Below, in pieces: positions 1,761 through 30,681 of a DNA stretch of 33,299 bases. How positions within the stretch are numbered: the first letter of the stretch is position 1; each line of letters opens with the position of its first letter. The stretch covers positions 1 through 33,299 of the IMG/VR virus record IMGVR_UViG_3300031539_000168; one strand, written 5' to 3'. Origin of the DNA: a virus. The translations under genes were made by a program, and so were the position numbers. The notes below the pieces were generated by a model, which saw nothing but the letters and a program-made list of their open reading frames with translations, searched no databases and was not told the origin of the DNA.

Positions 1761-1786
1761 TGCTTCGCGAGACACAAGATGTGGTG

Positions 1787-3517: not shown

Positions 3518-3569
3518 TACGTATCCTCCTGTCCTATTAAAGAGACGAACTTGTAATTCCCAGGCCGCA

Positions 3570-10119: not shown

Positions 10120-10922
10120 ACCACATTACACCCGCACACTTGGTCGGCTTCACCGCCGAACTCCGTAAGGAGGCAGACGCAGGGAAACTCAATCTCTTGC
10201 GTCGTGTTGGTACGTTTGGGGCCAAGCATTTGGGGGGTAGGTATGGTCGGCAGCTTGGCGTAGGAGCCCTTGCGGGTGGTGCTACTGGGGCGGGTTTGGA
10301 TGATGACAATAGGGTACGTGGTGCTATCCGCGGAGCTGTGGCCGGGGCAGGGTTAGCTAGTGGCCGCATACTTGCTACGGGAGCTGGTCGTGCTGCGGCG
10401 GCAAAGGGTTTAACGCGAATGGGCAAACGTCTACAATACCAAACCACTGGTACCGGTTTGGGTATGGGCCCTACAGCTAAACTTCGAGAAGCCCAGAGTT
10501 TGGGGTTGTTGAAGGCTCCTGGTGCTGGAGCGTCCAAGTCTGCACTTAAAAAGTACGACGCACACGTTGAGGGGTTTAGGAAGGGCTACGACAACCTGCC
10601 TGGGATTGTTCGTGGGGCTGTTACGCGCCCAGGGGACTTAGCCCGATCTGCGTGGCGTAGATCGGATATGTTAGGTAAAGGGTTTGCCGGTTTAGGTGCT
10701 GTTGAAGCTGGCCGTGCGGCTATGACTCCTAGTGAGGAGGGTGGTCCTGGTCGTGCTGAGAGATCTCTGAAGGCTCTCGGTTCTGCAGCGGGATGGATGG
10801 TGGCACCTACGGGACTTGTTGCCGGCACCCTTACAGGCATGGGTGGGGAGAAGGCGGGAAGGTTGTTGGGTAGGGGTGTTGACAAAACAGTAGGCGCTGT
10901 TCGTTCTGTAGGGGGTGCTTGA
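10116..10922 (+). CDS. Glycine-zipper-rich protein, possible internal or ejection protein
   Basis: 268 aa. After a short N-terminal helix (LVGFTAELRKEADAGKL), the protein carries Gly/Ala zipper stretches (GVGALAGGATGAGL, GAIRGAVAGAGLASG) that could insert in or pack against membranes, then basic segments (KGLTRMGKRLQ) and another hydrophobic Gly stretch near the C-terminus (GLVAGTLTGMGGEKAGRLLG). ATG 10116 forms an ATGA overlap with the preceding gene; an in-frame upstream ATG at 10059 lies inside that gene and lacks support. The profile suits a DNA-injection or internal head protein next to the portal. Function is inferred from composition only. Confidence 0.6.
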   Translation: MNHITPAHLVGFTAELRKEADAGKLNLLRRVGTFGAKHLGGRYGRQLGVGALAGGATGAGLDDDNRVRGAIRGAVAGAGLASGRILATGAGRAAAAKGLTRMGKRLQYQTTGTGLGMGPTAKLREAQSLGLLKAPGAGASKSALKKYDAHVEGFRKGYDNLPGIVRGAVTRPGDLARSAWRRSDMLGKGFAGLGAVEAGRAAMTPSEEGGPGRAERSLKALGSAAGWMVAPTGLVAGTLTGMGGEKAGRLLGRGVDKTVGAVRSVGGA

Positions 10923-12967
10923 TGTCTGGTGGGTTCTCAGGAGCAGCGTCATCCTCTGCAATGCGTTTTTCTGGTCGCGGCGGTAGCGGCGGTAGCGGTG
11001 CTGATCAAGGAATGCAATATCCGAGTCCATTCTTTGACATCGGACACACGTACCTCCCTGCCACAGTCAAGCAGATGTTTCGGTGGTGCAGGTATTACTA
11101 CCTGGTCAATCCACTGATTAATGCTGTCGTGTCTAAGATGTCTGAGTACCCAATCACGGACATCATCTTCGACACTGAACGTGAAGAGTTGCGGGACAAG
11201 TGGCAGGGATTCCTTATGGAACACTTGCGCTATCGATCATTCCAGGTCGAAGTAGGGTTGGACTACTACACCTATGGGAATGCTTTGGTTTCGATACACT
11301 TCCCATTCGTGAAGTACCTGTACTGTCACGCTTGTAATCATGAGGAAGCTGCGGGAGAGGCACAGTATAGGTTTCAGAACTACCAATTCACCTGGATCTG
11401 TCCCAAGTGTGATAGCCACGGTTTTGCTGGCGTACGCGACCACTACATTCGTTCCGCCAAAGGCATACGGCTACTCCGTTGGAACCCCGAGGACATCGAC
11501 ATTCGATACAATGAATCGAATGGAGAGTACGAGTACTACTACTCGATCCCAGTCCAACTACGTAACGATATTATGATCGGGAAAAAGTCCACGATCGAAT
11601 CTGTACCGCAACTCTTCATCGACGCTTTACGTTTGAAGAAGTCAGTAGTGTTTTCACGCGACAACATATACCACTTCAAACGCCCAACGTTGGCCGGAAA
11701 AGATCGTGGGTGGGGTACTCCTATGATCCTACCTGTGTTGAAGGACACGTTTTATCTACAGATCTTACGCAAAGCCCAGGAGGCTATCGCGCTCGAGCAC
11801 ATCGTACCGTTGCGCGTATTATTCCCACAGGCAGGCAGTGCCACGTCTGACCCATACACCACAGTTAACCTTAAGGACTGGAGGGACCAGATTGGGAACG
11901 AGATCAGACGTTGGAGAACCGACAATAACTACATCCCCATCCTCCCCCTCCCTATCGGACATCAGACTATCGGCGGAGATGGACGAGCACTACTCCTCTC
12001 GCAAGAGATTCGCGTATGGTCCGAACATATCGTCGCTGGTATGGGGATACCTGTCGAGCTCATATTTGGCGGCCTGTCGTACTCAGGATCGAACGTCTCC
12101 CTTCGTATGCTCGAGAACAGCTTCTTACGCTACCTCTCCGACCATCTTGCGCTCCTTAGATGGGTGATCAAGAGCGTCGCATCGTACCTGGGCTGGGCGC
12201 CGGTTAAAGCTCGATTCAAGCCGTTCAAGATGGCAGACGACTTGCAGCGTAAGGCGTACCTATTCCAGCTCAATCAAGCAGGTAAACTCTCTGATGAGTC
12301 TCTCTTGGCAGACGCGGATTACGATGCTCGTAAGGAAGACAAGTTGATGGAGCACGAAGCGGCCCGTCGCAACGCTTCACAAGAGAAGAATGCACTCCTG
12401 CAAGCCGAGACGCAAGGCAAGGCGGGTATGATCCAGCAGAAGTGGCAGAACAAAGCTGCTCGTGAACAGATGCAGGATCAGATGGCCATGCAAAGTGAGA
12501 TGGCTAAAGAACAAGCGGCTGTTGGTGCCGTTGCGCAAGACCATATGCTGGCCAGTCAGACGGCGGCTCAGTCGGGACAACCACCACCACAGCGCCCTCC
12601 TGAATTGGAACCTACCCCAAGGCAGCCTCAGATGCTGGAACCTCCGAAGGAGGTACAGTCTCCACTGTCTGCACAGACGATCCAAAGACATCCTGCCGGC
12701 ACATCAAACTCACAGATTGCTGGTGGTATGAACGTGGATTTGATTGTTGCAGCACGTAGGCTTGCTGATCGAATCATGAGTCAGCCAACACAAACACGCC
12801 CACAGATACTGGCTCGGCTCAAAGAGGTTAACCCACCTATGCACGACGCAGTGTTAGGGCTAATGATGAGTGGGGGCAATGGCCCCACTCAAGCTGCAGG
12901 GGCAGCCGCACGACCACTGCCTGAGCAGAAGCCGCCACGGCGTGGCCCTGAAGCAGCACTCGTCTAA
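10922..12967 (+). CDS. Portal protein with zinc-ribbon insertion
   Basis: 681 aa. Forms the dodecameric ring at the head vertex through which DNA is packaged and ejected. A Gly/Ser-rich N-terminus leads into a portal-type core: VNPLINAVVSKMSEYPI, YDYTYGNALVSIHFPF-like clip/wing segments, RWNPEDIDIRYNE, IYHFKRPTLAGKDRGWG and IPVELIFGGLSYSGSNVSLRM, the last typical of myovirus portals. The C-terminal 200 residues are Gln/Ala/Pro-rich. C135-x2-C138 and C160-x2-C163 form a rubredoxin-like zinc ribbon inside the core, which is unusual. ATG 10922 overlaps the preceding TGA as TGATG and follows AGGGGG. It ends against a convergent gene. Confidence 0.85.
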   Translation: MSGGFSGAASSSAMRFSGRGGSGGSGADQGMQYPSPFFDIGHTYLPATVKQMFRWCRYYYLVNPLINAVVSKMSEYPITDIIFDTEREELRDKWQGFLMEHLRYRSFQVEVGLDYYTYGNALVSIHFPFVKYLYCHACNHEEAAGEAQYRFQNYQFTWICPKCDSHGFAGVRDHYIRSAKGIRLLRWNPEDIDIRYNESNGEYEYYYSIPVQLRNDIMIGKKSTIESVPQLFIDALRLKKSVVFSRDNIYHFKRPTLAGKDRGWGTPMILPVLKDTFYLQILRKAQEAIALEHIVPLRVLFPQAGSATSDPYTTVNLKDWRDQIGNEIRRWRTDNNYIPILPLPIGHQTIGGDGRALLLSQEIRVWSEHIVAGMGIPVELIFGGLSYSGSNVSLRMLENSFLRYLSDHLALLRWVIKSVASYLGWAPVKARFKPFKMADDLQRKAYLFQLNQAGKLSDESLLADADYDARKEDKLMEHEAARRNASQEKNALLQAETQGKAGMIQQKWQNKAAREQMQDQMAMQSEMAKEQAAVGAVAQDHMLASQTAAQSGQPPPQRPPELEPTPRQPQMLEPPKEVQSPLSAQTIQRHPAGTSNSQIAGGMNVDLIVAARRLADRIMSQPTQTRPQILARLKEVNPPMHDAVLGLMMSGGNGPTQAAGAAARPLPEQKPPRRGPEAALV

Positions 12968-13979: not shown

Positions 13980-14134
13980 GACGAAGAATCTTCATCACTT
14001 TCGTCCTCGTCCTCAGTGTCTCCACTGATCTCGTCATCAATTTCATCAGAGAAGTCACCCAGACTACTGTCGTCCTCTGGATCAGCCATGAGTAGGTATT
14101 TGTTTGTATTTGAGTGTTCGTATGTTGTGTGCAT
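13976..14134 (-). CDS. Small acidic protein (52 aa)
   Basis: 52 residues. The first 18 are neutral (MHTTYEHSNTNKYLLM) and the remaining 34 are almost all Asp, Glu and Ser (DEIDDEISGDTEDEDESDED). TAGGAGAACAG lies directly before ATG 14134, one of the best ribosome sites in the window. It is the first gene of the minus-strand island. Very acidic small phage proteins are often DNA mimics or inhibitors of host nucleic-acid-binding proteins; that is inference, as no specific family is recognised. Confidence 0.65.
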   Translation of the reverse strand: MHTTYEHSNTNKYLLMADPEDDSSLGDFSDEIDDEISGDTEDEDESDEDSSS

Positions 14135-14285
14135 CTGTTCTCCTATGGTTGTTGTTTTGGACCGAATGACGGTTCCTTCTCCGGTACAATACTTATAACT
14201 CCAGCACCTCCTTTATTTCGGGTTTGCTAGGTTACCGAAGTGGGTGCTACTTTGATGTGTACGCACAACCACATAGGAGACACCC

Positions 14286-14441
14286 ATGGCACGACTTGAC
14301 CCAGAAGAGGGCCTCAGAGCTCTCAAAGATCGGGGAGAGACCAGCGCTATAGAAAGGTGGGAAGTAACCCACCCTACTACAAGCAAGATCAAAAATAAGA
14401 TTACCCGGACCCTACCTGGAGACATGCTATGGCTAGATTAG
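14286..14441 (+). CDS. 51-aa leader ORF duplicating the RNA polymerase N-terminus
   Basis: Encodes 51 aa. Residues 1-16 (MARLDPEEGLRALKDR) match the first 16 of the RNA polymerase that starts 143 bp downstream (MARLDPEEGFEVLKDR), with many synonymous differences. The rest (WEVTHPTTSKIKNKI, ending MLWLD) shows no resemblance to it. TAGGAGACACCC precedes the ATG, and the duplication includes the ribosome site. Its TAG ends 13 nt inside the polymerase gene in another frame, so translation is probably coupled. It could be a regulatory leader, a decoy peptide, or the remnant of an older 5' end. Confidence 0.55.
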   Translation: MARLDPEEGLRALKDRGETSAIERWEVTHPTTSKIKNKITRTLPGDMLWLD

Positions 14442-17400
14442 ATCCAGAAGAAGGGTTTGAGGTTCTAAAAGATCGGGTAAAGGAGACAGTCAAGGGACTC
14501 TTTCCGATCATTGGAAAGAAACACACACTTGAAGTAGACACTGTCGACATCAACGATTCGCTTAGCATCGACGACATCAGGTCGCAGAAGAAGGCGAAAG
14601 ATGCAGGTCGAACTTGGGCAGTGCCTGTAGAGGCCACTGTTAAACTACGCGACAGTGCTACAAATAAGATCATAGACACCCAGAAGATAAAACTACTGGA
14701 CCTGCCTAAGGTCACTCGTAGGTTTTCTCATATCGTCAACGGCCAAGAATATCAGATCGATAACCAGTGGCGTTTGAAGCCTGGTGTCTATTCGATGATC
14801 AAAGACGATGGCGCCTTGAAATCCCAGTTCAATCTATCGAAGGGACGAGGTTTCCACGTCAAGTTCGACCCAAAGGATAAGCGATTCCTTATGGAGTATG
14901 GGACTTCGAATATCCCACTAGCACCCCTCATGCAGGAGTTGGGAGTCTCTCCAGAGAAGATGAAGAAAGACTGGGGCGATCAAATCTCTGCGTCCAATGT
15001 GGAAAATAGAGAACAGGCCCTACTTAAGTTCTACAAAGCATCGACTGGACAAAAGACATCAGACACAGACCTTGCCCGCCAACACCTATGGGACACGTTT
15101 CAGAACACTGAAATGGGCAAAGGGGAGGTCAACAAAATCACCTTAGGTAAGAACTACCAGAGGGTGAATGGCGACTCTCTCTTGGATGCGTCTAAGAAAC
15201 TGTTGAGTATCTCGCAAGGCACGGCTACGCCAGATCCACGTGACTCTTTGATGTTCAAAGACTTGCACTCAGTAGAAGACTTCACAGCGGAACGTATCCA
15301 AAAGGGCGCGTATGATATCAACAGGCGTGTACGTAACACGATTGATCGTCGTACAAAAGTCAAGGACATAGTAGGGTCCGACATATTCAACCGCCCAGTA
15401 CAGAGGATGTTTACACATAATTCTCTGGCTAACGTTCCTGAGCAGACCAATCCGTTGGAGATGGTCTCAGGAGCCACTAAGACTACTATTACGGGCGAAG
15501 GTGGAATCAAGGGTGAGCATGGCATTTCTGATGAGGCAAAGCTGATCGACCCATCTCACCTGGGTTACTTAGACCCAATCCACACTCCAGAAGGCAAGTC
15601 TACTGGTGTCTCTTTGCGGTTACCTATCGGTGTTCATAAAGTAGGCCACGAGGTACGCGTCAAGATGTTCGACCCTAATACTGGGAAGAACAGGAACGTT
15701 GGTCCAGGAGCTGCAATGAATGCCACTATCGTACTTCCTGACCAAGTGTCTTGGGAGAATGGTAAGCCTAAGTTCCACGGCAAGACTGTGAAGATGTCTG
15801 GTCCTGGTAACGAGATTGTGGAGGGTGATCCTAAGAAGGCAGATCTCATTATGCGAGATCCGTCGCAGATGTTCTCTATAGCCTCAAACCTCATACCCTT
15901 TATGGCTGCTGACCATCCTAACCGTTCTACAATGGCGGGCCGGCATATGGAGCAGTCAATCCCCTTGGCTCAGCGTGAAGCCCCACTAGTGCAGGCTAAG
16001 TTTGGTAAGCGCACATTTGATGATGTATTGGGAGGCTTCGCCGCGATTAAGGCACCCTCTGGTATTTCAGATGGAACTGTTGTTGATTCGATCAAAGATG
16101 ATGCGATCATTCTAAAAGGGACCGATGGCAAGAAGAGGGAGGTTCAGATCTACAACCACTTCCCGTTGAACGCGGATAAAGCGTTCATCCACTCTACACC
16201 GTCTGTGAAGGTGGGAGACACTGTGAAGAAGGGCCAAATTCTGGCCGACAGTAACTTCACCAAGGGTGGGACCATGGCGCTAGGCACCAACATGCGTGTT
16301 GGGTACATGTCCTATAAGGGTTACAACTTTGAGGACGGCGTTGTCATCAGTGAAACGGCTGCAAAGAAGATGGCGAGTGAGCACCTTCACCGTAAAGCTA
16401 TGCAGCGTGACAAGAACTTCATCTTTGATAAGAACAAGTTCCGCGCTTACACGCCTGACGCTATGAACACGGAACAGTCAGACAAGCTCGATGACGAAGG
16501 TGTTATCAAGCCAGGCACTGTTGTTATGCCTGGCGATACTGTAGTAGCGGCGCTTCGTGAAAGGTTTGAGCATGAACGAGTAGAGGACTCTCAGCTCGCG
16601 AAGATCCACAAGTCTGCCGTAAAACCGTACCGTGACGCTAGCCTCAAGTGGGAAAAGGACATGCCAGGCATTGTCCAAGAGGTTGTAAAGAAGGGCAAGA
16701 ACCTTTCCGTAAACATAAAGACACTAGAACCTATGGAGATCGGCGACAAGCTGGCCGGTCGCCACGGTAACAAGGGTATCGTCACGAAGATCATCCGTGA
16801 CGATGAGATGCCACATACAAAAGATGGGGTACCCCTTGAGGTGCTACTCAACCCAACCGGTGTCCCAGGTCGTACTAACCTGGGGCAGGTTCTCGAGACT
16901 GCAGCAGGGAAGATCGCTCTAAAGACAGGGCAGCCTTACGTCGTAAAGAACTTCCAGCCTGGGGCTGATTTACATAAACAAGTGTCCGACGATCTGAAGG
17001 CCCACGGCATCAGTGACAAAGAGGAAATCTTCGACCCTGCTAATGGGCGGAAGATGGGAGATGTGTTGGTCGGACCTCAACACATGATCAAACTTAAACA
17101 CCAGGTAGATACTAAACTGCGTGCTCGAGCAGGCGGCCCAGGATATGCCTACGACCGTAACCTCATCCCAAAGGGTGGTGGTGCACACGGTGCACAGGCT
17201 TTGGGTACCTTGGGGCTGTACTCTATGTTGGCGCATGGGGCCAAGGCCAACTTACGTGAGATGCAGACGCTCAAGTCTGATGCTGAGCAAGGAGATCAGT
17301 TTTGGACAGCTCTACAAGCAGGTGAGATGTTGCCTGCACCGAGGACAACGTTCGCCTACAAGAAATTCAACAGCTATCTTAACGCCCTCGGAGTGAACGT

Positions 17401-20400
17401 TAAGAAAGAAGGCAACAACCTTCAGCTTGTCCCATTCACTGACAAGCAGATCTCTGACATGAGTAACGGAGAGATCAAAGACCCAGGAAAATGGGTACGC
17501 TCCAAAGACTTGAAACCCGAGAAGGGTGGGCTGTTTGATCCAGAAACAACTGGAGGTATGAACGGCACCAAGTGGGGGCATTACAAGTTACCCGAGGCGC
17601 TACCCAATCCTTTGTTCGAAGGCGCCGTACAGTCTTTGACAGGTCTTTCCGGGAAACAGTACAGTGACATCATCGCTGGCCGGAAAGCCATAGACACGAA
17701 GACTGGGCAAGTCACCGATGACATAGAAAACAATCTGGTAGGTGGCAAAGCGTTCGGCAGTTTGCTTGGCAAGATCAATGTGTCTGATGCATTGAAAGTC
17801 GCACAGACCGAGCTTAACAATCCCAACCTTAAAGGTAACCGTTTAGATCGGGCGCATAAAAAGGTCAAATACCTGTCTGCTCTAAAGAACGCAGACCTTG
17901 ATCCTAAGTCTGCGTACATGATGCAGAACGTGCCCATACTCCCACCGTCTATGCGTCCACTTTCTGTACTACCTAATGGTAGTTTGAACGAGGACGACGT
18001 GAACGGTCTGTACAAGAACATCGCCTTGTCTGCGTCCAAGTTCAAGGAGATGTCTCCTTTGATTCCTGACGATGACGAGTCTAAGGTAGAGATCAGGGAA
18101 GAAGTATACGACGGACTCCGTGCCCTCACAGGTCTGGGAGGTCATTCAAAACAGACCAGGCGTGGCATCCTTGATACGATCGGCGGAAAGCGGATTGAAC
18201 AAGGCACTGGTAAGAAGATAGGCTCCCCAAAAGAAGGATACTTCCAAGACAAACTAGTCCAGCGTAAACAAGATTTGTCTATGCGCTCGACTATTATTCC
18301 AGAACCCGCAATGGGACTGGATGAAGTGGGGCTGCCGCGTTCTGCGGCGACAGAACTCTACAAACCGTTCATTATCGGCGAGCTACGCAGACTCACAGGT
18401 ATGTCTCCGCTCCAGGCTCGAAAAGCGGTTAAGGAGGGCGGTGAGCTTGTCAACAGAGCTCTAGAACGTGTCATAGAAACACGCCCGGTACTGCTTAAGC
18501 GCGATCCCGCTTTGCACAAGTTCAGTATTCAGGCGTTCAAGCCACGGATTGTACAGGGTAAGGCAGTCCAGATTCACCCACTCGTGACATCCGGATACAA
18601 CGCAGACTTTGACGGCGACGCTATGTCTGCGTTTGTACCAGCTAGTCAGGAGGCTGTGGATGAAGCGAAGAAGATGATGCCATCTCACAATCTATTCAGT
18701 CCGTCTACGGGGGAGCTTATGTACACTCCCACACTTGAGACGAGATTAGGGTTATATGGTGTAACTAAAGAGGGCAATAAGACCGCCAAGAAATTCGGCA
18801 CCATTGGGGATGTTGAAAGCTCACACCGCAAGGGTGATATCAAGTTTACTGACCAGATAACTGTGGGAGGTCTGGCAGGCACCACAGGTAGGTTCATGGT
18901 TGCTGGTGCTCTACCATCCTCGATGCGTAAGAGCTTTCTACAATCTAAAACCCCTCTTGATGGCAAAGGTCAGGCTGAGTTACTTACTGCTGTTGCGCGT
19001 GATCATAAGAATGACTATGGGGAAGTGGTCAATAAGCTGAAAGACTTAGGCAACCAATGGTCCACAGATACTGCATTCTCGATCGGACTTGATGACGTGA
19101 AGCCAGAGAGAGCACTACGTGATTCTATCCTGGCCAAAGCAGATAAGGAGGTCGCTAAGCTATCCGGAAAAGATCGTGACGCTAAGGCCATAGATATCTA
19201 CGCGAAGGCTACCCAGGACATGCACGGTCGTATAGATCGTATGTCGGAAAATAACAGTAACCTTCTGATCATGCACCGGTCCGGCATCAAACCTACGATG
19301 GATTCCCTCCGTCAGATTAAGATGTCCCCTATGCTCATCGCTAATGCGAAGGGCGAAGTCATACCCACGCCTGTTCGGAAGTCCTTCTCGGAAGGATTGG
19401 ATATCTCAGACTACTGGACGAGTATGTCAGGTGCCCGTAAGGGGATTATCCAGAAGGTCCAGTCTGTTGAGAAACCAGGTTTCTTATCTAAGCAGGTAAT
19501 GAACTCGACCATGAACAACATCATCCTTGATGACGACTGTGGTACAGATAAGGGGATCAGTCTTGCTACGAGTGAGAAGGATATTCTCGATCGTTATTTA
19601 GCGGCGTCAGTTAAGTCTGGAAAGAAGACCTTTGGTGCCGGCACGTTGATAACACCAGACATTCGTAACTCATTACGCAATAATAAGATCGGGAAAGTCG
19701 TAGTACGTTCGCCTCTACGATGTAATCACGGTCCTGGATTATGTAAGAAGTGTTTCGGACTGGATGAGTCTGGAGAATCCCCAGAACTGGGGACCAACAT
19801 AGGTGTGCAGGCAGGGCAAGCGATTGGTGAGCGTTCTGTTCAGCTCGCCATGAAAGCTTTCCATACTGGGGGCACCGCAGCTACGAAGAACGTTCTTACT
19901 GACGAGTTCCAGCGGGTGCAGGACATGCTCCTATTCCCAAAGAATCTTCCAGGTTCAGCAACGCTGTCTAATGTTTCGGGCAGAGTAGAGAAGATGGATA
20001 AAGACCCTGCTGGTGGTCACAACGTGTTCATTGGTGGGCAGAGACACTACGTTCCGCAGAATCGGGGAGTACCTATCTTTGGGAATAAAGAAATCAAAGT
20101 AGGTATGAATGTGCGGAAAGGGGACCCTATATCTCGAGGGCCAGTTAATCCACACGACATGCTACCCCTTACAGGTGTTGAGCCAGTACAGAACTACTTG
20201 GCCAATGAGCTACACGGTATTTATGGCCGCCAAGGTATCCGTCGTCGTAACAGCGAGGTTGTCGTCAAGGCCCTTACAAACCTCACCAGGGTAGAAGACC
20301 CTGGTGACTCTGGTGATTACATTCGTGGCGACTTTGCACCACAAACACACGTCGCCAATCTTAATAGAGGGTTGAAGAGTGGACAACGTCCGATCGTACA

Positions 20401-20602
20401 CCAGCCTGTTTTGAAAGGGGTAAACGTACTACCTCATGAGATGCAGGAGGATTGGCTTGCACGCCTAAACCACGACAGGTTAGGTCAGACTGTCATAGAG
20501 GCCGCCCAACAAGGTTGGATCTCTAAGATACACGGACCACATCCAATACCTGCTGTTGTTTATGGTGCTGAGTTTGGCAAAGGTAAGCCTGGGGAATACT
20601 GA
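14429..20602 (+). CDS. Single-chain DNA-directed RNA polymerase (beta plus beta-prime fusion)
   Basis: 2057 aa holding both large catalytic subunits. Beta part: LDPIHTPEGKSTG at 381-393, NMRVGYMSYKGYNFEDG at 621-637, GDKLAGRHGNKG at 772-783 with both active-site lysines. Beta-prime part from about residue 1010: VPILPPSMRPL, GYFQDKLVQRKQDLSMRS, NADFDGD at 1391-1397 (catalytic Mg ligands), zinc site 2 (C1704, C1765, C1772, C1775) and trigger-loop segment QLAMKAFHTGG with H1812. The first beta-prime zinc ribbon is missing: GLFDPETTGGMNGTKWGHYKL (1034-1054) replaces it. No alpha, omega or sigma gene is nearby. GGAG precedes ATG 14429. Lying between portal and spike genes, it may be packaged in the virion, though it could equally serve late transcription. 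Confidence 0.93.
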   Translation: MARLDPEEGFEVLKDRVKETVKGLFPIIGKKHTLEVDTVDINDSLSIDDIRSQKKAKDAGRTWAVPVEATVKLRDSATNKIIDTQKIKLLDLPKVTRRFSHIVNGQEYQIDNQWRLKPGVYSMIKDDGALKSQFNLSKGRGFHVKFDPKDKRFLMEYGTSNIPLAPLMQELGVSPEKMKKDWGDQISASNVENREQALLKFYKASTGQKTSDTDLARQHLWDTFQNTEMGKGEVNKITLGKNYQRVNGDSLLDASKKLLSISQGTATPDPRDSLMFKDLHSVEDFTAERIQKGAYDINRRVRNTIDRRTKVKDIVGSDIFNRPVQRMFTHNSLANVPEQTNPLEMVSGATKTTITGEGGIKGEHGISDEAKLIDPSHLGYLDPIHTPEGKSTGVSLRLPIGVHKVGHEVRVKMFDPNTGKNRNVGPGAAMNATIVLPDQVSWENGKPKFHGKTVKMSGPGNEIVEGDPKKADLIMRDPSQMFSIASNLIPFMAADHPNRSTMAGRHMEQSIPLAQREAPLVQAKFGKRTFDDVLGGFAAIKAPSGISDGTVVDSIKDDAIILKGTDGKKREVQIYNHFPLNADKAFIHSTPSVKVGDTVKKGQILADSNFTKGGTMALGTNMRVGYMSYKGYNFEDGVVISETAAKKMASEHLHRKAMQRDKNFIFDKNKFRAYTPDAMNTEQSDKLDDEGVIKPGTVVMPGDTVVAALRERFEHERVEDSQLAKIHKSAVKPYRDASLKWEKDMPGIVQEVVKKGKNLSVNIKTLEPMEIGDKLAGRHGNKGIVTKIIRDDEMPHTKDGVPLEVLLNPTGVPGRTNLGQVLETAAGKIALKTGQPYVVKNFQPGADLHKQVSDDLKAHGISDKEEIFDPANGRKMGDVLVGPQHMIKLKHQVDTKLRARAGGPGYAYDRNLIPKGGGAHGAQALGTLGLYSMLAHGAKANLREMQTLKSDAEQGDQFWTALQAGEMLPAPRTTFAYKKFNSYLNALGVNVKKEGNNLQLVPFTDKQISDMSNGEIKDPGKWVRSKDLKPEKGGLFDPETTGGMNGTKWGHYKLPEALPNPLFEGAVQSLTGLSGKQYSDIIAGRKAIDTKTGQVTDDIENNLVGGKAFGSLLGKINVSDALKVAQTELNNPNLKGNRLDRAHKKVKYLSALKNADLDPKSAYMMQNVPILPPSMRPLSVLPNGSLNEDDVNGLYKNIALSASKFKEMSPLIPDDDESKVEIREEVYDGLRALTGLGGHSKQTRRGILDTIGGKRIEQGTGKKIGSPKEGYFQDKLVQRKQDLSMRSTIIPEPAMGLDEVGLPRSAATELYKPFIIGELRRLTGMSPLQARKAVKEGGELVNRALERVIETRPVLLKRDPALHKFSIQAFKPRIVQGKAVQIHPLVTSGYNADFDGDAMSAFVPASQEAVDEAKKMMPSHNLFSPSTGELMYTPTLETRLGLYGVTKEGNKTAKKFGTIGDVESSHRKGDIKFTDQITVGGLAGTTGRFMVAGALPSSMRKSFLQSKTPLDGKGQAELLTAVARDHKNDYGEVVNKLKDLGNQWSTDTAFSIGLDDVKPERALRDSILAKADKEVAKLSGKDRDAKAIDIYAKATQDMHGRIDRMSENNSNLLIMHRSGIKPTMDSLRQIKMSPMLIANAKGEVIPTPVRKSFSEGLDISDYWTSMSGARKGIIQKVQSVEKPGFLSKQVMNSTMNNIILDDDCGTDKGISLATSEKDILDRYLAASVKSGKKTFGAGTLITPDIRNSLRNNKIGKVVVRSPLRCNHGPGLCKKCFGLDESGESPELGTNIGVQAGQAIGERSVQLAMKAFHTGGTAATKNVLTDEFQRVQDMLLFPKNLPGSATLSNVSGRVEKMDKDPAGGHNVFIGGQRHYVPQNRGVPIFGNKEIKVGMNVRKGDPISRGPVNPHDMLPLTGVEPVQNYLANELHGIYGRQGIRRRNSEVVVKALTNLTRVEDPGDSGDYIRGDFAPQTHVANLNRGLKSGQRPIVHQPVLKGVNVLPHEMQEDWLARLNHDRLGQTVIEAAQQGWISKIHGPHPIPAVVYGAEFGKGKPGEY

Positions 20603-21855
20603 TGCCAACTACGTTCAACAACTCCCCTTCATCCTCAACACTAAAAGATGCACGTGTTGAAACGGGTACTGTGGCCAACGCCAACGGCAGGACCATGACT
20701 GTAGACTGGGTGTCACAATACAGTGGGCGTCAGATACTAGACATTCAAGTGATGTCTCCGTACTTCCACTTCAATAACGGAGAAGGGTTCTCTATTCTCC
20801 CGGAGGTGGGAGCCATATGTGCGGTGTGTTTCCCATCTGACGACGACAGTCCTTTCGTAATGGGTTTTTTAAGTGGCCCAGAACTCCTGGGAGCTGAGTC
20901 TTCAGACAACGTACAAGATCAACAAGATGATCCAGAAGTCAACGGGCCGGAAGATATGGAAACACCCATCACAACGTCCGCCGGCGGCTCAACTGAAACG
21001 GGAGAGGGGAATCAATCTGAAGTCACTTATCGTGGTGCTAGACCAATCCTAAACCCAGGTGACCAGATGTGGCAGGGGCGTGATGAGAACTTCGTCATCC
21101 TCAGAAGAGGTGGGGTTCTCCAGATTGGTGCTACCAAGATCGCTCAACGTGCCTACATTCCGATAGATAACTTTATCCGAGACTTCTGTGAGAACTATGA
21201 GCTTGTAACTGCATCAGGGTCACTGTCTTGGACTGTTGAGCGTCAGGAGAATGACCCCGAAGGTAATGCCCCAACAAACCTATCTCTTGTTGCTCGTGAG
21301 TTCGCACAAGATGCGAAAGCGTCAGTACGTTTGAGTGTAGGCAGTCTCGATGCTGTCGATCCTGTACCTGGAGACAGTACAGGAAAGTCATACATAGAAC
21401 TGGTTATTGCACCGCAGGGAATCAACCCAGACACTGGAGAGGTTGAAGGGACTCAAGTGTATGCCTTACGCTTGGACAAAGTAGGCAACAGTTTCCAGAT
21501 GCAGTCGGGTACTCGGACAGACAAGATTGGCGGCGCATGGGATGTTACTGTCGAGAAGAACCACAGTCTCACAGTTAAAGGAGATCGTAAGACCAGCGTG
21601 GGTGGTGTCGATTCGACTACGATCAAGGGCGACCACGTTGTTGAAGGCAGTGCTGGGAGCAAGGAAACTTGGACCGGATTAAAGTCGATCAGTGCGGCGA
21701 TACTGAAGCTTGGAGGGGATGCGGCTTCCGAACCCCTGCTGAAAGGGTTACAATCAGTAGCCTGGCTAGCATCACACTCTCATCCAGGTACAGGACCTCC
21801 TATTCAAGCCGCAGCATTACCTAGTATTCTTTCCACTACAGTGTTTACAAAGTAG
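20602..21855 (+). CDS. Baseplate central spike (gpV/gp5/VgrG-type)
   Basis: 417 aa. The membrane-piercing tip of the contractile tail. Residues 17-92 form the OB-fold of gpV/gp5 proteins (GTVANANGRTMTVDW, LPEVGAICAVCFPSDD, FVMGFLSG). An acidic/Ser linker follows, then a beta-rich region and a triple beta-helix with short repeats (WDVTVEKNHSLTVKGDRK, TTIKGDHVVEGSAG). H392-S-H394-P near the C-terminus is the HxH motif that coordinates iron at the tips of known phage spikes. No lysozyme domain is present, unlike T4 gp5. The start overlaps the RNA polymerase stop as TGATG, which ties the two genes' translation. Confidence 0.82.
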   Translation: MPTTFNNSPSSSTLKDARVETGTVANANGRTMTVDWVSQYSGRQILDIQVMSPYFHFNNGEGFSILPEVGAICAVCFPSDDDSPFVMGFLSGPELLGAESSDNVQDQQDDPEVNGPEDMETPITTSAGGSTETGEGNQSEVTYRGARPILNPGDQMWQGRDENFVILRRGGVLQIGATKIAQRAYIPIDNFIRDFCENYELVTASGSLSWTVERQENDPEGNAPTNLSLVAREFAQDAKASVRLSVGSLDAVDPVPGDSTGKSYIELVIAPQGINPDTGEVEGTQVYALRLDKVGNSFQMQSGTRTDKIGGAWDVTVEKNHSLTVKGDRKTSVGGVDSTTIKGDHVVEGSAGSKETWTGLKSISAAILKLGGDAASEPLLKGLQSVAWLASHSHPGTGPPIQAAALPSILSTTVFTK

Positions 21856-22166: not shown

Positions 22167-24179
22167 ATGGATCTCTTTATCGATAAAGAACTGACCTTTG
22201 AGAAGCTGGGTATGGAATCCCGGATGGGCGAGGACATGAACACGTGGCCACGTCAAATTTTGGATGAGTTAAACCGTCAAGCACCGTTCACCAGTGACTA
22301 CACACCCAAAGTTGTCCTCACTAAGCAGGACAACGACAAACGGTATGCGTTGGGGCAGATTGAGTTGACCAACAAGTTGGCCATCAACCCGCGTGATGAT
22401 GCGACTCCAAGAGGGATGAAGGGCTCTGAGAAGATTGCCATCCCAGTCATCATTAAAGACGGGGTGATGAAGCCCCTCGACATGATGTTGGCGGATGGTC
22501 GTGCCGAGCCTCTTACTGAGGACCGTGCCCGTCGTGCATTATTCCGGCCCAACCTGTTCGAGGCTATTCGAAAACGCCCAGGAGACATGAGCCTTATTGA
22601 GCAACTTTACCCTCCGCACCGACAGACTGGTAGCGGTGGTGGCCGCGGTATGGTGGCCGATGCAGGCACTGATGGCACGAAGCAAGCGTCTGCTGGCAGA
22701 CCGTCCTCATTGATGGACGCCATCCTTCCTACGATTCGAAAGTGTGATCTAGATAAGGTGGCACATCGTTTAGCAACCGATGTCACATTGCGTGCAGCTC
22801 TTGTAGGAAATGCCGCGACGTTACCATTTATAAACAAGCTGGCTTCTATCGAAGGGGTGCCTGATTATGGTCGTGTTGGGATGCGAAAAGTGGCGTCCTC
22901 TATACGACCGGACGTTATTCAGATTAAAAAGATCCCAGGTGGTTTCCGGGTTAAGACGGCCAGTAGCGAGGCCCTCATTCCAGATTCTGAGGACATCCCA
23001 CGTGCAGCTGCTATTGGGGAGTTTGGTGGTGACGTCGTGCAGAAAGTTGAGCAAGACGGCACTGTTACGCTGAACACCCAGCCTGCAGTCAAAGAGACGC
23101 TGGTCAACATAGAAGTCCCAGTTGCCCATCAGTTTGGGATCTATAAAGTACGTGAGAAGGACAGTGGGGCACAGAAGATGGGGTGGGTGTTCCCCAACGT
23201 GATGGGCCTTGACGGTGTGGTACTGCCCATGTCTGTCTTCTCTAATGGTTCTGATGCTGCGATGCAGGAGAATATCGCAGGAATCATGGTCGATAACAGT
23301 ACCGACTTGATTGATGAGCCTCCCTCGGGGTTCGGCTGCTTCTATTACGCTACGGCATCGGGTGCCCAAGCGCTCGTACCAGTAAACATAGAGGGTGAGG
23401 TGGAATCGGAGGAGGGCACTGGTTATGAGTGCGAAACCATCCTCGGTGATTCAGTGACTTTGAAGCTGGTTCCAGGCCTTAAAGAGTTGGACCAGTTGAG
23501 TGATAACACGTATGCAATCCCTGGGGATTGTGGGTTCATTCCTATGCGTGAAGTCACGGAGCTGGCCTCTAGTCCGGAGGAGTTCTTCAAGCAAGCATCT
23601 GCGCAGGCTCTACCTACCGCAGTCAGGGTTACCACTCAAGATGGGCGGTACTTCAGTTTTGAAGGGCAGCCTATCGAGAAAATAGCCAAGGTGACACCTA
23701 CCCGGGGGTTGGACTTAGATGACGCAGTGTTCTTAGGTGCAGTGCTTGGGCAATATCCCGAGAAGCTAGCATCTGATTTAGGGTCGATTCGTTCAAAGGG
23801 GCGGTATGAGATGTGGTTCACTGCTGAACCTGTTTCGTTATTTCGTGAGAAACACGCATCTGCACGGAAAGAGGCGGTCGCATTCTTGGAGAGACTCCCG
23901 GACATAAAGTACGATCTCCTGAAAGAGGCTGCTCCACTTGAGGACCCAACTGCGGTTGATAAGGTTCTTTCTATCGGATTCGTGAATCCGGAGAACCTTT
24001 CGATCTTTGCTGGTTATCTATCGGACTTTGAAACAACCGTAAATAAGTTGTCGGAGATTTTGATCGCAAGCCGTATGGGTTTGCAGTCAGTTGATGAGGG
24101 GGCTCTACAGAGATCGCTTGTTCACCTAGATAAAGTGATTGTCGGTTTGAAGTCTTTGAGCAAATTGCCACAAGTGTAG
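22167..24179 (+). CDS. Large virion protein with seven K-x-A-S motifs
   Basis: 670 aa, unrecognised; probably structural from its location. The N-terminal 150 residues look globular (MDLFIDKELTFEKLGMESRM, RYALGQIELTNKLAIN, DGVMKPLDMML). Then comes a Gly/Lys/Ala-rich segment, a central beta-rich portion (VAHQFGIYKV, MGWVFPNVMGLDGVVLPM) and a helical C-terminus. The tetrapeptide K-x-A-S occurs seven times (KQAS twice, KLAS twice, KVAS, KTAS, KHAS), far more than expected. GAGGTGAACG gives a good ribosome site. The central part could be a baseplate or tail component; repeated proteolytic processing is conceivable. Confidence 0.65.
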   Translation: MDLFIDKELTFEKLGMESRMGEDMNTWPRQILDELNRQAPFTSDYTPKVVLTKQDNDKRYALGQIELTNKLAINPRDDATPRGMKGSEKIAIPVIIKDGVMKPLDMMLADGRAEPLTEDRARRALFRPNLFEAIRKRPGDMSLIEQLYPPHRQTGSGGGRGMVADAGTDGTKQASAGRPSSLMDAILPTIRKCDLDKVAHRLATDVTLRAALVGNAATLPFINKLASIEGVPDYGRVGMRKVASSIRPDVIQIKKIPGGFRVKTASSEALIPDSEDIPRAAAIGEFGGDVVQKVEQDGTVTLNTQPAVKETLVNIEVPVAHQFGIYKVREKDSGAQKMGWVFPNVMGLDGVVLPMSVFSNGSDAAMQENIAGIMVDNSTDLIDEPPSGFGCFYYATASGAQALVPVNIEGEVESEEGTGYECETILGDSVTLKLVPGLKELDQLSDNTYAIPGDCGFIPMREVTELASSPEEFFKQASAQALPTAVRVTTQDGRYFSFEGQPIEKIAKVTPTRGLDLDDAVFLGAVLGQYPEKLASDLGSIRSKGRYEMWFTAEPVSLFREKHASARKEAVAFLERLPDIKYDLLKEAAPLEDPTAVDKVLSIGFVNPENLSIFAGYLSDFETTVNKLSEILIASRMGLQSVDEGALQRSLVHLDKVIVGLKSLSKLPQV

Positions 24180-25587: not shown

Positions 25588-25764
25588 CCGGCGTGAGCCG
25601 GCCAGATAACAGGAACCCCCACTGACTTCTCCCATAGTTGTCGAGATGTTGGCAGGGTTCCTGATGGTTACATGTTTGATTGTTAGATAACAGGACCGCC
25701 TCGATCTAGTAACTGGCCTAATGGGAACATTCAGTGGGCTACATCTCCAGCCAGTTACTGTCCT
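25588..25764 (+). other. Two structured intergenic units with complementary loops upstream of terL
   Basis: The gap 25582-25790 contains a GC-rich hairpin (CCGGC-GTGA-GCCGG, 25588-25601) and then two units, each opening with AGATAACAGGA (25604-25614 and 25685-25695). Unit 1 is closed by CAGGAACCC/GGGTTCCTG (25610-25618, 25655-25663). Unit 2 is closed by AGTAACTGGC/GCCAGTTACT (25708-25717, 25750-25759) with an outer AGGAC/GTCCT pair. The loop of unit 1 (CCCACTGA, 25618-25625) is perfectly complementary to unit 2's loop (25731-25738), and complementarity continues imperfectly. No U-tract follows. It could be a structured RNA, or a DNA site such as a packaging signal. Confidence 0.65.
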
Positions 25765-25790
25765 TATAACGCTAGGCAGTGTGTTTTTCG

Positions 25791-27635
25791 ATGAGTACCA
25801 TACATCTAAAAGAGCTCGAAATACTCAAGACCGCTAAGAAGATCAAACTGATCAACTCTTTTATATCTGGACCTGATGGACGGAGATATAGTGAGCCTTT
25901 TTACGATCTGGATGATGAAGGCAACCCTTGTGATTACGACTTTGATGTAGATGTACCCGATCCTACCTTAGATCAAATAACAGGCTTCCATGGAGATCCT
26001 GGCCTGGTAGGTGTTCGACCGAGTGAGTTTGCTGAGACAGCAATACGTATCCCAGAAGCTGGACGTGTCACGGATTTCACTTTTGAAGGACGTGAGTATC
26101 TGCGTAGGATCTACGACTCATCATCAAAGAAGGTCCTACTGAAGTGCGGGCGTCAGGTTGAGAAATCGACAACCGTTGCTAATAAGCTTATTTGTTACGC
26201 GGCCCTGATGAACCACTTCAGGGCTTTGTACGTTGCTCCTTCTGCAGATCAAGCCAAGGTATTCTCCAATGACCGTGTCCGTGACGTCATTGAGAACTCC
26301 CCACTGTTGAAGGCGTACACTCCAGGGGCTCTAAACCAGAACGTGTTCCGGAAGAAGTTTGTCAACTTCTCACAAATCACTCTAAGGTATGCTTATCTGA
26401 CTGCTGATCGCGTACGTGGCATCTCGGCCGATATGATCACTATCGATGAGATTCAGGACATCCTCATCGAGAACATCCCTGTCATCGAGCAATGTGCCTT
26501 CCACTCTCCAGTTAAGCAGTTTCTTTACTCTGGTACACCCAAGTCCCTTGATAACACCATAGAGCACTACTGGCAGGAGTTCTCCACTCAAAACGAGTGG
26601 ACTGTGCCTTGTGAACGCCATGGTACGCCAAAAGACCCAGGCTCTTGGCATTGGAATGTGTTGGACATTTCCAACATAGGTAAGAAGTGTTTGATTTGCG
26701 ATAAGTGTGGTGGGGCTATAGATCCCCAACACCCTCACGCACAGTGGACGTCTTTGAATCCGGTCGACAAGAACAATGCCGAGAAGGTCACGTTTGACGG
26801 CTACCGTGTTCCGCAGATCATGGTACCGTGGGTTGACTGGCAGGAGGTTGTTGAGGCCCTCGAGCAATACCCTCGTCCTAAGTTCATGAACGAGAAGCTG
26901 GGGATGTCTTACGACTCCGGCGTCAAACCCATTACACGTGCACAGCTTAAAGCGTGTTGCCGACCAGAACTTAGAATTTCTGACATCGACTCTATCAAGA
27001 GCATCATTGGCGGCAGACCAGTGTACTGCGGTATAGACTGGGGTACAGGAGAGAATGCCAGTTATACGATGATCTCTTTCGGTGCATACATAGGTACTGG
27101 CAACTTCACAATCTTCTATATCCACAGGTTTACAGGTCATGACTTGGAGCCTGATAGACAGTTGGATGCCATTCGCCAAATGGTTTCTCAGATGAACACA
27201 CGTATTGTAGGTACGGACTACGGTGGTGGCTTCTATCAGAACGACAAACTTATTAGGACCTTCGGTCCTAAGAGGGTATTCAAGTACAACTACAACTGGC
27301 GGCAGAAGAAACTCATCTACTGGGAGCCCAACCTAAAAAGGTTCATGGTCCATCGTACAGAGGTAATGAATGCCATCTTCACAGCCATGAAGGACCGGAA
27401 AATTGACCTACCTTGTTGGGACGATTTTCACGAGCCCTTTGGCTCAGACATCCTAAGCATCTTTACGGAGTACAATGAGCAACTCCGTATGGATCAATTT
27501 AAGAAATCCCCTGGAAAGACAGACGATGCTTTCCACTCAATCTTACTGTGTGTGTTGGCATCGATGATTGAGCATGAACGGCCGGACATCCTGATCCCAG
27601 GTAAAGAAACAGGTATCTCAATAAAACATGGCTAA
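25791..27635 (+). CDS. terL: Terminase large subunit
   Basis: 614 aa. ATP-powered motor and nuclease that packages DNA into the prohead through the portal. ATPase domain: Walker A variant CGRQVEKST at 119-127 (a Glu in place of the usual Gly), Walker B MITIDE at 215-220, coupling motif SGTP at 247-250. A zinc-ribbon-like insertion follows (C274, then CLICDKC with C300, C303, C306). Nuclease domain: CGIDWGTGENAS with the first metal Asp, VGTDYGGG with the second, and KTDDAFHS with the third acidic site. ATG 25791 is chosen over an in-frame GTG at 25779; neither has a good ribosome site, so the start is uncertain. A bidirectional hairpin follows the stop. Confidence 0.92.
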   Translation: MSTIHLKELEILKTAKKIKLINSFISGPDGRRYSEPFYDLDDEGNPCDYDFDVDVPDPTLDQITGFHGDPGLVGVRPSEFAETAIRIPEAGRVTDFTFEGREYLRRIYDSSSKKVLLKCGRQVEKSTTVANKLICYAALMNHFRALYVAPSADQAKVFSNDRVRDVIENSPLLKAYTPGALNQNVFRKKFVNFSQITLRYAYLTADRVRGISADMITIDEIQDILIENIPVIEQCAFHSPVKQFLYSGTPKSLDNTIEHYWQEFSTQNEWTVPCERHGTPKDPGSWHWNVLDISNIGKKCLICDKCGGAIDPQHPHAQWTSLNPVDKNNAEKVTFDGYRVPQIMVPWVDWQEVVEALEQYPRPKFMNEKLGMSYDSGVKPITRAQLKACCRPELRISDIDSIKSIIGGRPVYCGIDWGTGENASYTMISFGAYIGTGNFTIFYIHRFTGHDLEPDRQLDAIRQMVSQMNTRIVGTDYGGGFYQNDKLIRTFGPKRVFKYNYNWRQKKLIYWEPNLKRFMVHRTEVMNAIFTAMKDRKIDLPCWDDFHEPFGSDILSIFTEYNEQLRMDQFKKSPGKTDDAFHSILLCVLASMIEHERPDILIPGKETGISIKHG

Positions 27636-28947: not shown

Positions 28948-29871
28948 ATGAACGATCAGCCTGGCTCTGTCCCACTTGCGCTTGTCCAACAACAGGCGGC
29001 TAACCCAATTGACCCCGAGCAGCTAGAGCTGATGGGGAAACAAGCAGCCAAGTTGTACCGTTCTCAAGGGTGTCGTTTGAACGATGCTGTTGTGCAGATA
29101 GTCAAAACAGCACAGCTCGCACCTGAGCAGGTAAAGAGGGTGTGTGAGTTTGCGAACACATCAGCGTACCTGGAGGAGTTCGAGAAGGCTGGTGAGATGC
29201 GGAATATCACCTTTGACGGAGGGCCGGCAAACCCAGGTGTGGTCCTTCAAGAGCTGAATGACGGCACCGCTCCTGCCATTCACCAGGTGGATTCGTCAGA
29301 CTATAACGAGCCTGTGAGCAGCTACAAGGTGGCCGCAGCAGGGGACGATTTCCTGGCCAGAGCTTTCGGGCATGGTGGTATGCAGAAGGTTGCCGAGGCC
29401 AACCACAGTTTACACGCTGATCCCATTGAGGATTTACGGGATATGCGTATCAAACTGTCCAGTATGCGTGACAACTTCAACAGTACTCTGAGCAGCATGC
29501 GTGTTGGACTCGATGACGTTGAGTCTGACCTTCTGAAAGAAGCTACGCAGGCTGTTGTAGATGGTGTCAGTTTGGGTGACATTCGTAGGGCATGGGGCCA
29601 AACTGGTGCAGATGACTTCTTTGTGAAGAAGGCCATGGTTTCGATTGGTAAACACCTACAGGCTCGTGGAGTAGATAGAGACGCCCTATCGGTGTCCTAT
29701 ACGAAGGTTGCCGGCGCTGGGATTGTGGCAAACCCAGCGCATCCTTTGATGTCGAAGTTTGCTGCTTTCGCCAAAATGAGTCGTGAGCTTATGAAGCTCG
29801 GTTACGCCGTTGAAGTGGCTGAAACCGAGCTTGCAAAGGTGAATGCCCAAATTAAAAGGAGCATCTCATGA
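28948..29871 (+). CDS. Putative head/internal protein
   Basis: 307 aa. Residues 20-80 carry a helical domain (LMGKQAAKLYRSQGCRLNDAV, TAQLAPEQVKRVCEFANTSA) of the kind found in proteins of large phages encoded close to the capsid genes; I know of no assigned function. The middle (FLARAFGHGGMQKVAEANH) is followed by a long coiled coil (DLRDMRIKLSSMRDNFN) and a Lys/Ala-rich C-terminus. Eight K-x-A tripeptides occur. TGAGGATTCA precedes the ATG and a strong promoter lies just upstream. It is likely a virion or assembly protein at the start of an operon leading to the protease and scaffold. Confidence 0.62.
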   Translation: MNDQPGSVPLALVQQQAANPIDPEQLELMGKQAAKLYRSQGCRLNDAVVQIVKTAQLAPEQVKRVCEFANTSAYLEEFEKAGEMRNITFDGGPANPGVVLQELNDGTAPAIHQVDSSDYNEPVSSYKVAAAGDDFLARAFGHGGMQKVAEANHSLHADPIEDLRDMRIKLSSMRDNFNSTLSSMRVGLDDVESDLLKEATQAVVDGVSLGDIRRAWGQTGADDFFVKKAMVSIGKHLQARGVDRDALSVSYTKVAGAGIVANPAHPLMSKFAAFAKMSRELMKLGYAVEVAETELAKVNAQIKRSIS

Positions 29872-30183: not shown

Positions 30184-30681
30184 ATGGCAAATGCTGTTGA
30201 TGATTTTTTGAAGGAAGCGGGGTTCTTATCAGACCTTGGAAGGGGTCTGATGGGTGAAGGTGGGAAAGGTTTTGGTCACGCTGTGGGACAAAACCTATTG
30301 GGTGCTGGGATCGCGGTAGGTGTGGGTGCCGCCTCAACAGGGGCTTACAGTGCTTTTAAGAAGATCATGGACTATAGAGCGAGTCCTCGCGATTACCAGG
30401 CGATGATGTCGGCACACCCATCCCTCAAGAAAAAGCCCGCTCGCCAGGTACAGATGCTTTACAATTCGCTACGCACTACAGCACCTGATATGGCGAAAGA
30501 CCCACTGATTGCCGGGTCTTTCATACGAAACATGATGGCTGTCCAACCTGATGAAGGTCTGGCCATCCCCATGGATACAGTGAAGACACTGGCTGATACG
30601 CAAAAAGGCATATCGGACGCACGCTCAAAAGACAAAGCTCCCGATTTCTTTAACCCCCTACTCCGCCCAAGTATCGGCTAA
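30184..30681 (+). CDS. Hypothetical protein with Gly-rich hydrophobic segment
   Basis: 165 aa. The N-terminal helix (AVDDFLKEAGFLSDLG) is followed by a glycine-rich hydrophobic stretch (GHAVGQNLLGAGIAVGVG), possibly membrane-active, and a C-terminal globular part (RQVQMLYNSLRTTAPDMAKDP, then AGSFIRNMM). ATG 30184 is used, following GGGG and directly after the previous stop; a longer in-frame version beginning at 30064 lies inside the preceding gene and is unsupported. It belongs to the protease operon and is probably a head-internal or ejection-type protein. The C-terminal segment recurs, in my recollection, in other large-phage structural genes. Confidence 0.58.
   Translation: MANAVDDFLKEAGFLSDLGRGLMGEGGKGFGHAVGQNLLGAGIAVGVGAASTGAYSAFKKIMDYRASPRDYQAMMSAHPSLKKKPARQVQMLYNSLRTTAPDMAKDPLIAGSFIRNMMAVQPDEGLAIPMDTVKTLADTQKGISDARSKDKAPDFFNPLLRPSIG

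Follow-up and report, generated by a model that had tools for sequence, protein, structure and literature searches.

How does a protein carrying both large subunits of a cellular-type RNA polymerase (RNAP) come to be encoded among the structural genes of a virus, and what would it do there? The question is raised by one locus in a stretch of viral DNA of 33,299 nucleotides, the whole of which is referred to below as the window.

A complete beta and beta' polymerase on one chain

The locus (14429..20602, plus strand) is an open reading frame (ORF) of 2057 aa with an ATG start and no internal stop. Pfam profiles identify seven bacterial RNAP domains on the chain: the beta domains Rpb2_2, Rpb2_3 and Rpb2_6 (E 2.6e-63) within residues 183-904; and the beta' domains Rpb1_1, Rpb1_2 (1.4e-28), Rpb1_3 and Rpb1_5 (6.3e-20) within residues 1132-1962. 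By alignment, the beta part spans residues 1-996 (14429..17416, plus strand) and is followed, with virtually no linker, by the beta' part, residues 997-2057 (17417..20599, plus strand). The alignment also places the catalytic residues, all on the plus strand: the beta active-site lysines, equivalent to E. coli K1065 and K1073, in GDKLAGRHGNKG (residues 772-783, 16742..16777); the catalytic Mg motif of beta', NADFDGD (residues 1391-1397, 18599..18619); and the trigger-loop histidine, residue 1812 (19862..19864), equivalent to E. coli H936. The original prediction that one 2057-aa frame holds the full catalytic motifs of both subunits is thus confirmed by ORF, Pfam and alignment. The models of both halves also match the bacterial subunits, as the proposed structural check had envisaged: residues 1-1030, modelled with AlphaFold at pLDDT 85, match bacterial beta (E 4e-76, TM 0.78), and residues 960-2057, modelled at pLDDT 87, match bacterial beta' (E 7e-68, TM 0.84). 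With both barrels, NADFDGD, the two lysines and the trigger loop, the ORF thus belongs, by sequence and model, to the DNA-dependent RNA polymerases of the two-barrel (cellular) type.

The beta' N-terminal zinc-binding domain, whose site in the alignment is GLFDPETTGGMNGTKWGH (17555..17566, plus strand), is missing from all ten aligned members of the fused family; it is kept in the aligned bacteria and in phages of the mReC type (multi-subunit RNAP-encoding Caudovirales, PMC7481178). No RNAP alpha (PF01193) was found in the 27 fused-RNAP genomes searched, a search in which the controls worked. In addition, residues of the rifampicin site are altered (in the alignment, E replaces E. coli D516, G replaces H526 and T replaces S531), and the enzyme may well be insensitive to rifampicin. 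A phage-specific docking tail at the C-terminus was considered and dropped, the region being, by eye, the end of bacterial beta' (EAA..G...G...IP).

Gene neighbourhood and relation to the Arash/D69 lineage

The lineage used for comparison comprises Salmonella phage Arash and the Vibrio phages D69, D148 and D181 (the 'Arashvirus' lineage). The D69 RNAP is homologous over 97% of the window protein, and Arash gp206 and gp216 together are homologous over nearly all of it, the Arash RNAP being about 33% identical to the window's. As in the window, the beta-beta' junction is fused in this lineage, the portal gene lies just upstream, and the terminase large subunit (TerL) and virion proteins are homologous. 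The cultured relatives differ in that beta' is split after the catalytic barrel, near residue 1480, that the D181 beta is itself split by a homing endonuclease gene, and that the catalytic motif of Arash and D69 reads AADYDGD rather than NADFDGD. The beta' split is found only in L003, L004, L005, L075, L078, L079 and L080; a concatenated tree puts this split group within the fused group, and a tree of beta' only gives the unsplit group a support of 0.57. By its homologous RNAP, fused at this junction and encoded next to the portal gene, the window belongs with the Arash/D69 RNAP lineage; since its beta' is unsplit, as in most relatives, it is related to the split subgroup without being part of it. 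The accessible sections of the Arash paper use the names 'beta' and 'beta prime' for the two parts, with no mention of a fusion.

Upstream of the RNAP gene lies the gene for a portal protein of 682 aa (10919..12967, plus strand; PHROG portal, E 4e-4), whose family profile matches the annotated portal of Arash with an E-value of 1e-184. Downstream, all on the plus strand, are genes for a spike-like protein of 417 aa (20602..21855), which has weak matches to Gp5_trimer_C and Phage_base_V and whose profile matches Arash gp238, the product of a gene adjoining the PAAR tip gene; a conserved structural-block protein of 670 aa (22167..24179), found at 62 loci; TerL (25779..27635; PHROG 675, E 7e-59), listed with a GTG start, although the true start, judged by eye, is probably an ATG near 25791; and homologues of the Arash virion proteins gp220 (307 aa, 28948..29871) and gp222 (614 aa, 30681..32525). 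In nearly every relative the RNAP gene lies within the structural block, beside the portal gene, whereas two-subunit phage RNAPs with annotated surroundings are encoded beside replication genes.

The RNAP gene does lie between portal and spike genes, as had been predicted, but minus-strand ORFs separate it from the portal gene, so this position does not imply a single operon. The predicted TGATG overlap with the spike start is also real, the last base of the RNAP stop codon being the A of the spike-like ATG (position 20602). Co-translation with the spike, which had been offered as evidence for a virion role, is a weak argument because the arrangement is not conserved: the spike-like gene is the downstream neighbour of the RNAP gene at 49 loci, and overlap or abutment (<=4 nt) is seen in 14 of 49 relatives, the remaining gaps ranging from 6 to >4000 nt.

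Three features precede the gene. A short ORF of ~51 aa (14286..14441, plus strand) repeats the RNAP N-terminus (MARLDPEEGLRALKDR) and ends just inside the RNAP start. The conserved family motif CTTATAAC (14192..14199, plus strand), which precedes the RNAP start by 237 nt, is a candidate promoter or unit-boundary element; the only other exact copy in the window is at the TerL start (25763..25770, plus strand). Finally, a possible sigma70-like promoter of the RNAP gene, TTGCTA-18-TACTTT (14224..14253, plus strand), was noted by eye on the alignment, where its positions match in relatives; a consensus scan did not return the site. Such sigma70-like elements would mean that expression could precede the 'late' stage.

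Virion proteomics and the role of the polymerase

The best explanation, which we consider probable, is that the locus encodes a late-made, virion-packaged, working single-chain RNAP that acts with a phage sigma and transcribes phage genes after injection. This RNAP of the tailed-phage Arash/D69 lineage would be expressed along with the late genes and be packaged, like the phage sigma factor, in the virion. Presumably injected with the DNA, it would transcribe phage genes without waiting for the host enzyme, or in its place, and the conserved phage sigma would set promoter choice.

In the published proteomics of purified Arash virions, gp206 is the most detected protein, with 3516 spectra and 128 unique peptides. 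It is accompanied by gp216 (the beta' C-part; 1210 spectra), the sigma gp10 (467) and the SNF2 helicase gp217 (1148). These figures correspond to 2.3, 2.0, 2.0 and 2.4 spectra per residue for gp206, gp216, sigma and the helicase, respectively, with 1.5 for the portal and 4.3 for the capsid. The table has some odd-looking rows, such as a primase with 932 spectra but 2 unique peptides. Unique peptides per 100 aa number 8.4 for the RNAP, 6.6 for the beta' C-part, 10.3 for sigma and 8.1 for the helicase, compared with 5.5 for the portal and 9.8 for the capsid, and with 1.4 for ribonucleotide reductase, 0.6 for ligase and 0.2 for primase. Homologues of the sigma detected in Arash virions occur in 17 of 23 family genomes at an E-value limit of 0.1, and in 16 of these at E <=1e-13; in addition, the gene for this sigma sits within the tail-gene run in both Arash and D69; no homologue is present within the window's 33-kb fragment.

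Since the homologue in Arash is the most detected protein in the published virion data, the window's phage probably delivers its own transcription machinery by injection, packaging being taken by analogy with Arash. The original suggestion that the enzyme is either packaged in virions or produced alongside late proteins is, to that extent, supported by the Arash data and by the structural-block position in nearly all relatives. The main alternative, which we regard as rather unlikely, is that the RNAP is a non-virion enzyme made during infection for middle or late genes, and that the signal in Arash particles is carry-over of abundant intracellular protein. Carry-over is allowed for by the Arash authors, whose preparation also contains non-structural enzymes, among them ribonucleotide reductase and other cytoplasmic enzymes. 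In addition, DPBB-type RNAP loci number one per genome in all 27 relatives, and one two-barrel locus could supply a single enzyme for all stages; a search for a second, T7-type RNAP (PF00940) gave no match, and its positive control gave none either. However, unique peptides per 100 aa group the RNAP, beta' C-part, sigma and helicase with portal and capsid and set them apart from ribonucleotide reductase, ligase and primase, and the location of the gene in the structural block, unlike that of two-subunit phage RNAPs, also argues for the packaged enzyme.

Origin of the fusion and comparison with known polymerases

The fused-RNAP family forms its own clade with support 1.0, separate both from the bacteria and from the two-subunit (mReC-type) RNAPs of phages, a result that answers the phylogenetic check proposed with the original prediction. 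Supports are from FastTree, and an interim IQ-TREE tree gave the same clades; the sample held 26 diverse bacteria including Helicobacter, and 5 mReC-type isolates in place of the original mReC contigs. If one phage had recently captured an rpoB-rpoC pair from a host and then fused it, as in Helicobacter, this would explain why the order of beta and beta' is that of the bacterial operon, and why the sequence resembles bacterial subunits more closely than mReC-type ones, both in beta (HMM scores of ~440-545 versus 226-254 bits, full-length) and in beta' (600-730 versus at most 450 bits). Such a capture is nonetheless very improbable, as the family is monophyletic, falls outside all 26 bacteria at about twice their depth, shares the loss of the zinc-binding domain, and matches bacterial genomes at <=30% identity throughout. 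A search of genome contigs for a prophage or host clue found no host, the matches being only to bacterial rpoBC at 25-30% identity.

The fused RNAP is found as one uninterrupted ORF in >60 further contigs, at 33-70% identity, with the portal gene on one side and, mostly, a spike-like gene on the other. Of these relatives, 49 have a full-length single ORF; another 12 single ORFs contain large in-frame inserts, and 1 has an upstream extension. An artefact of assembly or sequencing that linked two ORFs, which had been named as a ground for rejecting the fusion and for which no supporting point was found, is effectively ruled out by these independent copies and by the identical beta/beta' junction within single ORFs of the cultured phages Arash and D69.

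Several known systems share part of this architecture. Like the window's phage, mReC are tailed phages whose beta and beta' are clearly bacterial-like and branch outside cellular RNAPs, but their beta and beta' genes are separate (PMC7481178), and mReC-type RNAPs keep the zinc-binding domain and form a different clade. A Gp23-type major capsid (PF07068) is present in 7 of 7 two-subunit mReC-type phages and in 0 of 27 fused-RNAP genomes, the window being a fragment; two-subunit isolates stood in for the original mReC contigs in these comparisons. Membership of mReC is rejected on capsid, fusion and tree. The RNAPs of phiKZ/AR9-type jumbo phages are likewise two-barrel enzymes that lack alpha, with one form carried in the virion; they differ in that beta and beta' are each split, giving four or five chains and two enzymes per genome, and they have no recognisable sigma and far weaker sequence similarity (PMC7598289). 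The window has one chain, with one locus per genome in its 27 relatives, and is not of this type.

The crAss-like, YonO and P23-45 RNAPs do carry both barrels in one polypeptide, and those of crAss and P23-45 act from the virion, but their beta/beta' sequence is unrecognisable beyond the DxDGD region (PMC10770324); the window protein has the whole bacterial domain set, all seven Pfam domains, and falls outside this minimal-chain class. The Helicobacter and Wolbachia rpoBC proteins, the best NCBIfam matches, fuse bacterial-type beta and beta' in the same order, but they are cellular, retain the zinc-binding domain and are ~2890 aa long, and the tree indicates that the fusions are not related by descent. 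The view that phage subunits are usually split therefore holds for phiKZ-like phages but overlooks the single-chain crAss-like, YonO and P23-45 enzymes already known. The window protein differs from these in that one phage chain carries complete beta and beta' sequences that are easily recognised as bacterial-type. A literature search, supplements and preprints excluded, found no description of this fused phage RNAP, although one survey mentions 'derivatives with fused DPBB domains' (PMC10770324).

Until now, the virion-packaged two-barrel RNAPs described were either heavily split (phiKZ) or cryptic in sequence (crAss, P23-45). A packaged RNAP with nearly the whole bacterial beta/beta' body on one chain, and with a sigma, would be a tractable system; the fused RNAP offers a single-gene, bacterial-type enzyme for experiments in vitro, and one relative, Arash, is already in culture. 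More tentatively, a widespread lineage may package a holoenzyme, consisting of a one-chain RNAP without alpha and zinc-binding domain plus its own sigma (and, in Arash, an SNF2 helicase), that serves as the sole enzyme throughout infection, from injection until lysis, recognising a promoter code of its own and working independently of host RNAP. The finding raises the questions of how a bacterial core assembles without alpha, what purpose the zinc-binding domain serves, and how phage transcription can run from the phage's own injected enzyme.

The fused polymerase and its family

In the 33,299-base virus record, the ORF at 14429-20602 translates without stops into 2057 amino acids, bearing out the prediction of a single-frame polymerase. 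Pfam places beta domains at residues 183-904 and beta' domains at 1132-1962; a PDB sequence search matched bacterial beta' chains (E 1e-106), and the top NCBIfam matches are fused beta/beta' models, those of Helicobacter and Wolbachia. Alignment with bacteria confirms the predicted catalytic motifs: the aspartates, two beta lysines and the trigger-loop histidine are retained, and the second zinc site keeps its four cysteines. Each half was modelled separately with AlphaFold from 45 family members, and the models match bacterial beta and beta' in predicted fold (beta half, pLDDT 85, TM 0.78 to solved bacterial beta; beta' half, pLDDT 87, TM 0.84 to solved bacterial beta'). Viral models found in BFVD with the beta half were all at TM 0.64 or below.

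Scans of IMG/VR for relatives of the polymerase returned one and then at least 75 loci. Among the matches listed, 49 encode the complete enzyme as a single ORF of about 2000-2200 amino acids, 13 further have longer single ORFs (12 with large in-frame inserts, one with an upstream extension only), and ten are broken off at contig ends. Seven records, including the cultured Salmonella phage Arash and the cultured Vibrio phages D69 and D181, have beta and beta' fused with beta' split near residue 1480, on the C-terminal side of the catalytic barrel; this resembles a site common to jumbo-phage and cyanobacterial beta' (PMC7598289). An assembly or sequencing artefact is ruled out by single-ORF copies in many contigs and by the fusion in cultured phages. 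The fused polymerase is real and defines a family, with one two-barrel polymerase locus per genome (27/27).

The three inserts tested (loci L024, L061 and L070) contain LAGLIDADG homing-endonuclease domains, and in one of them (L070) an intein splicing domain was recognised. Other enlarged polymerase ORFs occur in L022, L023, L026, L039, L040, L055, L066, L068 and L069, and enlarged portal or TerL ORFs (about 950-2060 amino acids) in L011, L015, L024, L069 and L070; the inserts and enlarged ORFs look like intein-rich late genes. In D181 (L005), a homing endonuclease gene at 4459-5407 divides the beta part into two ORFs; beta is undivided at that site in its close relative D69.

The beta' N-terminal zinc-binding domain is cleanly absent from all ten family members shown in the alignment, whereas the bacteria and mReC-type phages shown there, the latter with separate beta and beta' genes, possess it. 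The flap-tip segment and clamp helices are retained with changed residues, and the rifampicin-pocket residues differ from bacterial ones. FastTree trees of beta, beta' and the concatenation (root left open for lack of an archaeal outgroup) each recover a monophyletic family (support 1.0) and monophyletic bacteria (0.94-1.0). Two-subunit phage enzymes fall outside both. A Gp23-like capsid gene (PF07068) was found in all seven two-subunit phages tested, three above the curated cut-off, and in none of 27 fused-polymerase genomes; the Arash capsid weakly resembles the HK97-type Phage_capsid family. Two unannotated, unverified wastewater records (L098, L099), labelled as phages of Enterococcus and of Staphylococcus, carry ordinary bacterial rpoB-rpoC pairs, which look like host or community contamination.

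Gene neighbourhood and a candidate promoter

Named by the window proteins, the order kept in the family is c402 - (d247, e290, f287) - portal - polymerase - s417 (spike-like) - u670 - v298 - w167 - TerL. The polymerase of the fused family thus lies in a structural block, whereas the two-subunit genes of Carin-5 (L091), YerA41 (L092) and RHph_TM3_3_6 (L095) have replication-type neighbours, near DNA polymerase genes and, in the first two, also topoisomerase genes. The window's replication genes (2-6568, minus strand), encoding a DnaB-like helicase, a uracil-DNA glycosylase-fold protein and a ResIII-type DNA helicase, are transcribed away from the structural block.

The stop/start overlap with the spike gene, behind the co-translation of the original prediction, proved a local feature: the polymerase and s417 genes overlap or abut within 4 nt in 14 of 49 relatives. 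Minus-strand ORFs separate the portal from the polymerase in the window, and the polymerase therefore probably needs its own promoter. One minus-strand ORF just upstream (13976-14089) encodes 37 very acidic residues, and relatives have similar acidic stretches at this position. A short ORF at 14286-14441, ending just inside the polymerase start, repeats the first 16 polymerase residues (MARLDPEEG..LKDR) with many synonymous differences; L043, L060 and L019 have partial, similar duplications upstream of the polymerase.

The 8-base element CTTATA(A/C)C may be a late promoter. In close relatives (L006-L070) it lies upstream of the polymerase in 24 loci, of TerL in 20 and of c402 in 10; the window has two exact copies, at 14192 and 25763 (0.8-1.0 expected), and a variant at 7207. 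All 16 copies in three large contigs are on the late-gene strand. Alternatively, the opposite strand, which reads G[GT]TATAAG with a conserved AA close to position -35, could act as a divergent promoter. As a candidate phage promoter, CTTATA(A/C)C marks the unit starts of c402, the polymerase and TerL in close relatives.

A probable virion-carried polymerase

The Arash virion proteome (PMC10585845) is headed by gp206, in which beta continues into the N-terminal portion of beta'; it was detected by 3516 spectra and 128 unique peptides, with 100% of its sequence covered. It also lists gp216, the rest of beta' (1210 spectra), the SNF2 helicase gp217 (1148), the sigma factor gp10 (467), the portal (877) and the capsid (1333), as well as gp238, gp220, gp221 and gp222, the homologues of window proteins s417, x307, y205 and z614, respectively. 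Normalised here by protein length, these data give spectra per residue of 2.3 for gp206, 2.0 for gp216, 2.4 for gp217, 2.0 for gp10, 1.5 for the portal and 4.3 for the capsid. In the same table some proteins oddly combine 2-3 unique peptides with several hundred spectra and near-full coverage; the unique-peptide column seems safer.

The Arash virion sigma is a divergent FliA-like factor whose gene sits within the tail-gene run in Arash and D69. Of 23 family genomes, 17 encode a homologue within E 0.1, and 16 of these matches reach 1e-13 or better; several contigs also have Sigma-70 domain matches. SNF2-type helicase matches occur in 16 of 24 genomes (13 above cut-off); in Arash alone was one seen immediately after the polymerase. 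A search of 27 genomes, in which the controls worked, revealed no alpha subunit.

The main rival is that the polymerase was carried over into the Arash particle preparation, an alternative that the authors allow (PMC10585845). However, in the same table cytoplasmic enzymes (primase, ligase, ribonucleotide reductase) have 0.2-1.4 unique peptides per 100 residues, a density that sets them apart from the polymerase parts, SNF2 helicase, sigma, portal and capsid. The idea of a virion-carried or late-made enzyme gains from the Arash homologue at the top of the list and loses the general spike overlap. Packaging in the window phage is inferred from this one published relative, and the likeliest role of the fused enzyme is that of a polymerase carried in the virion.
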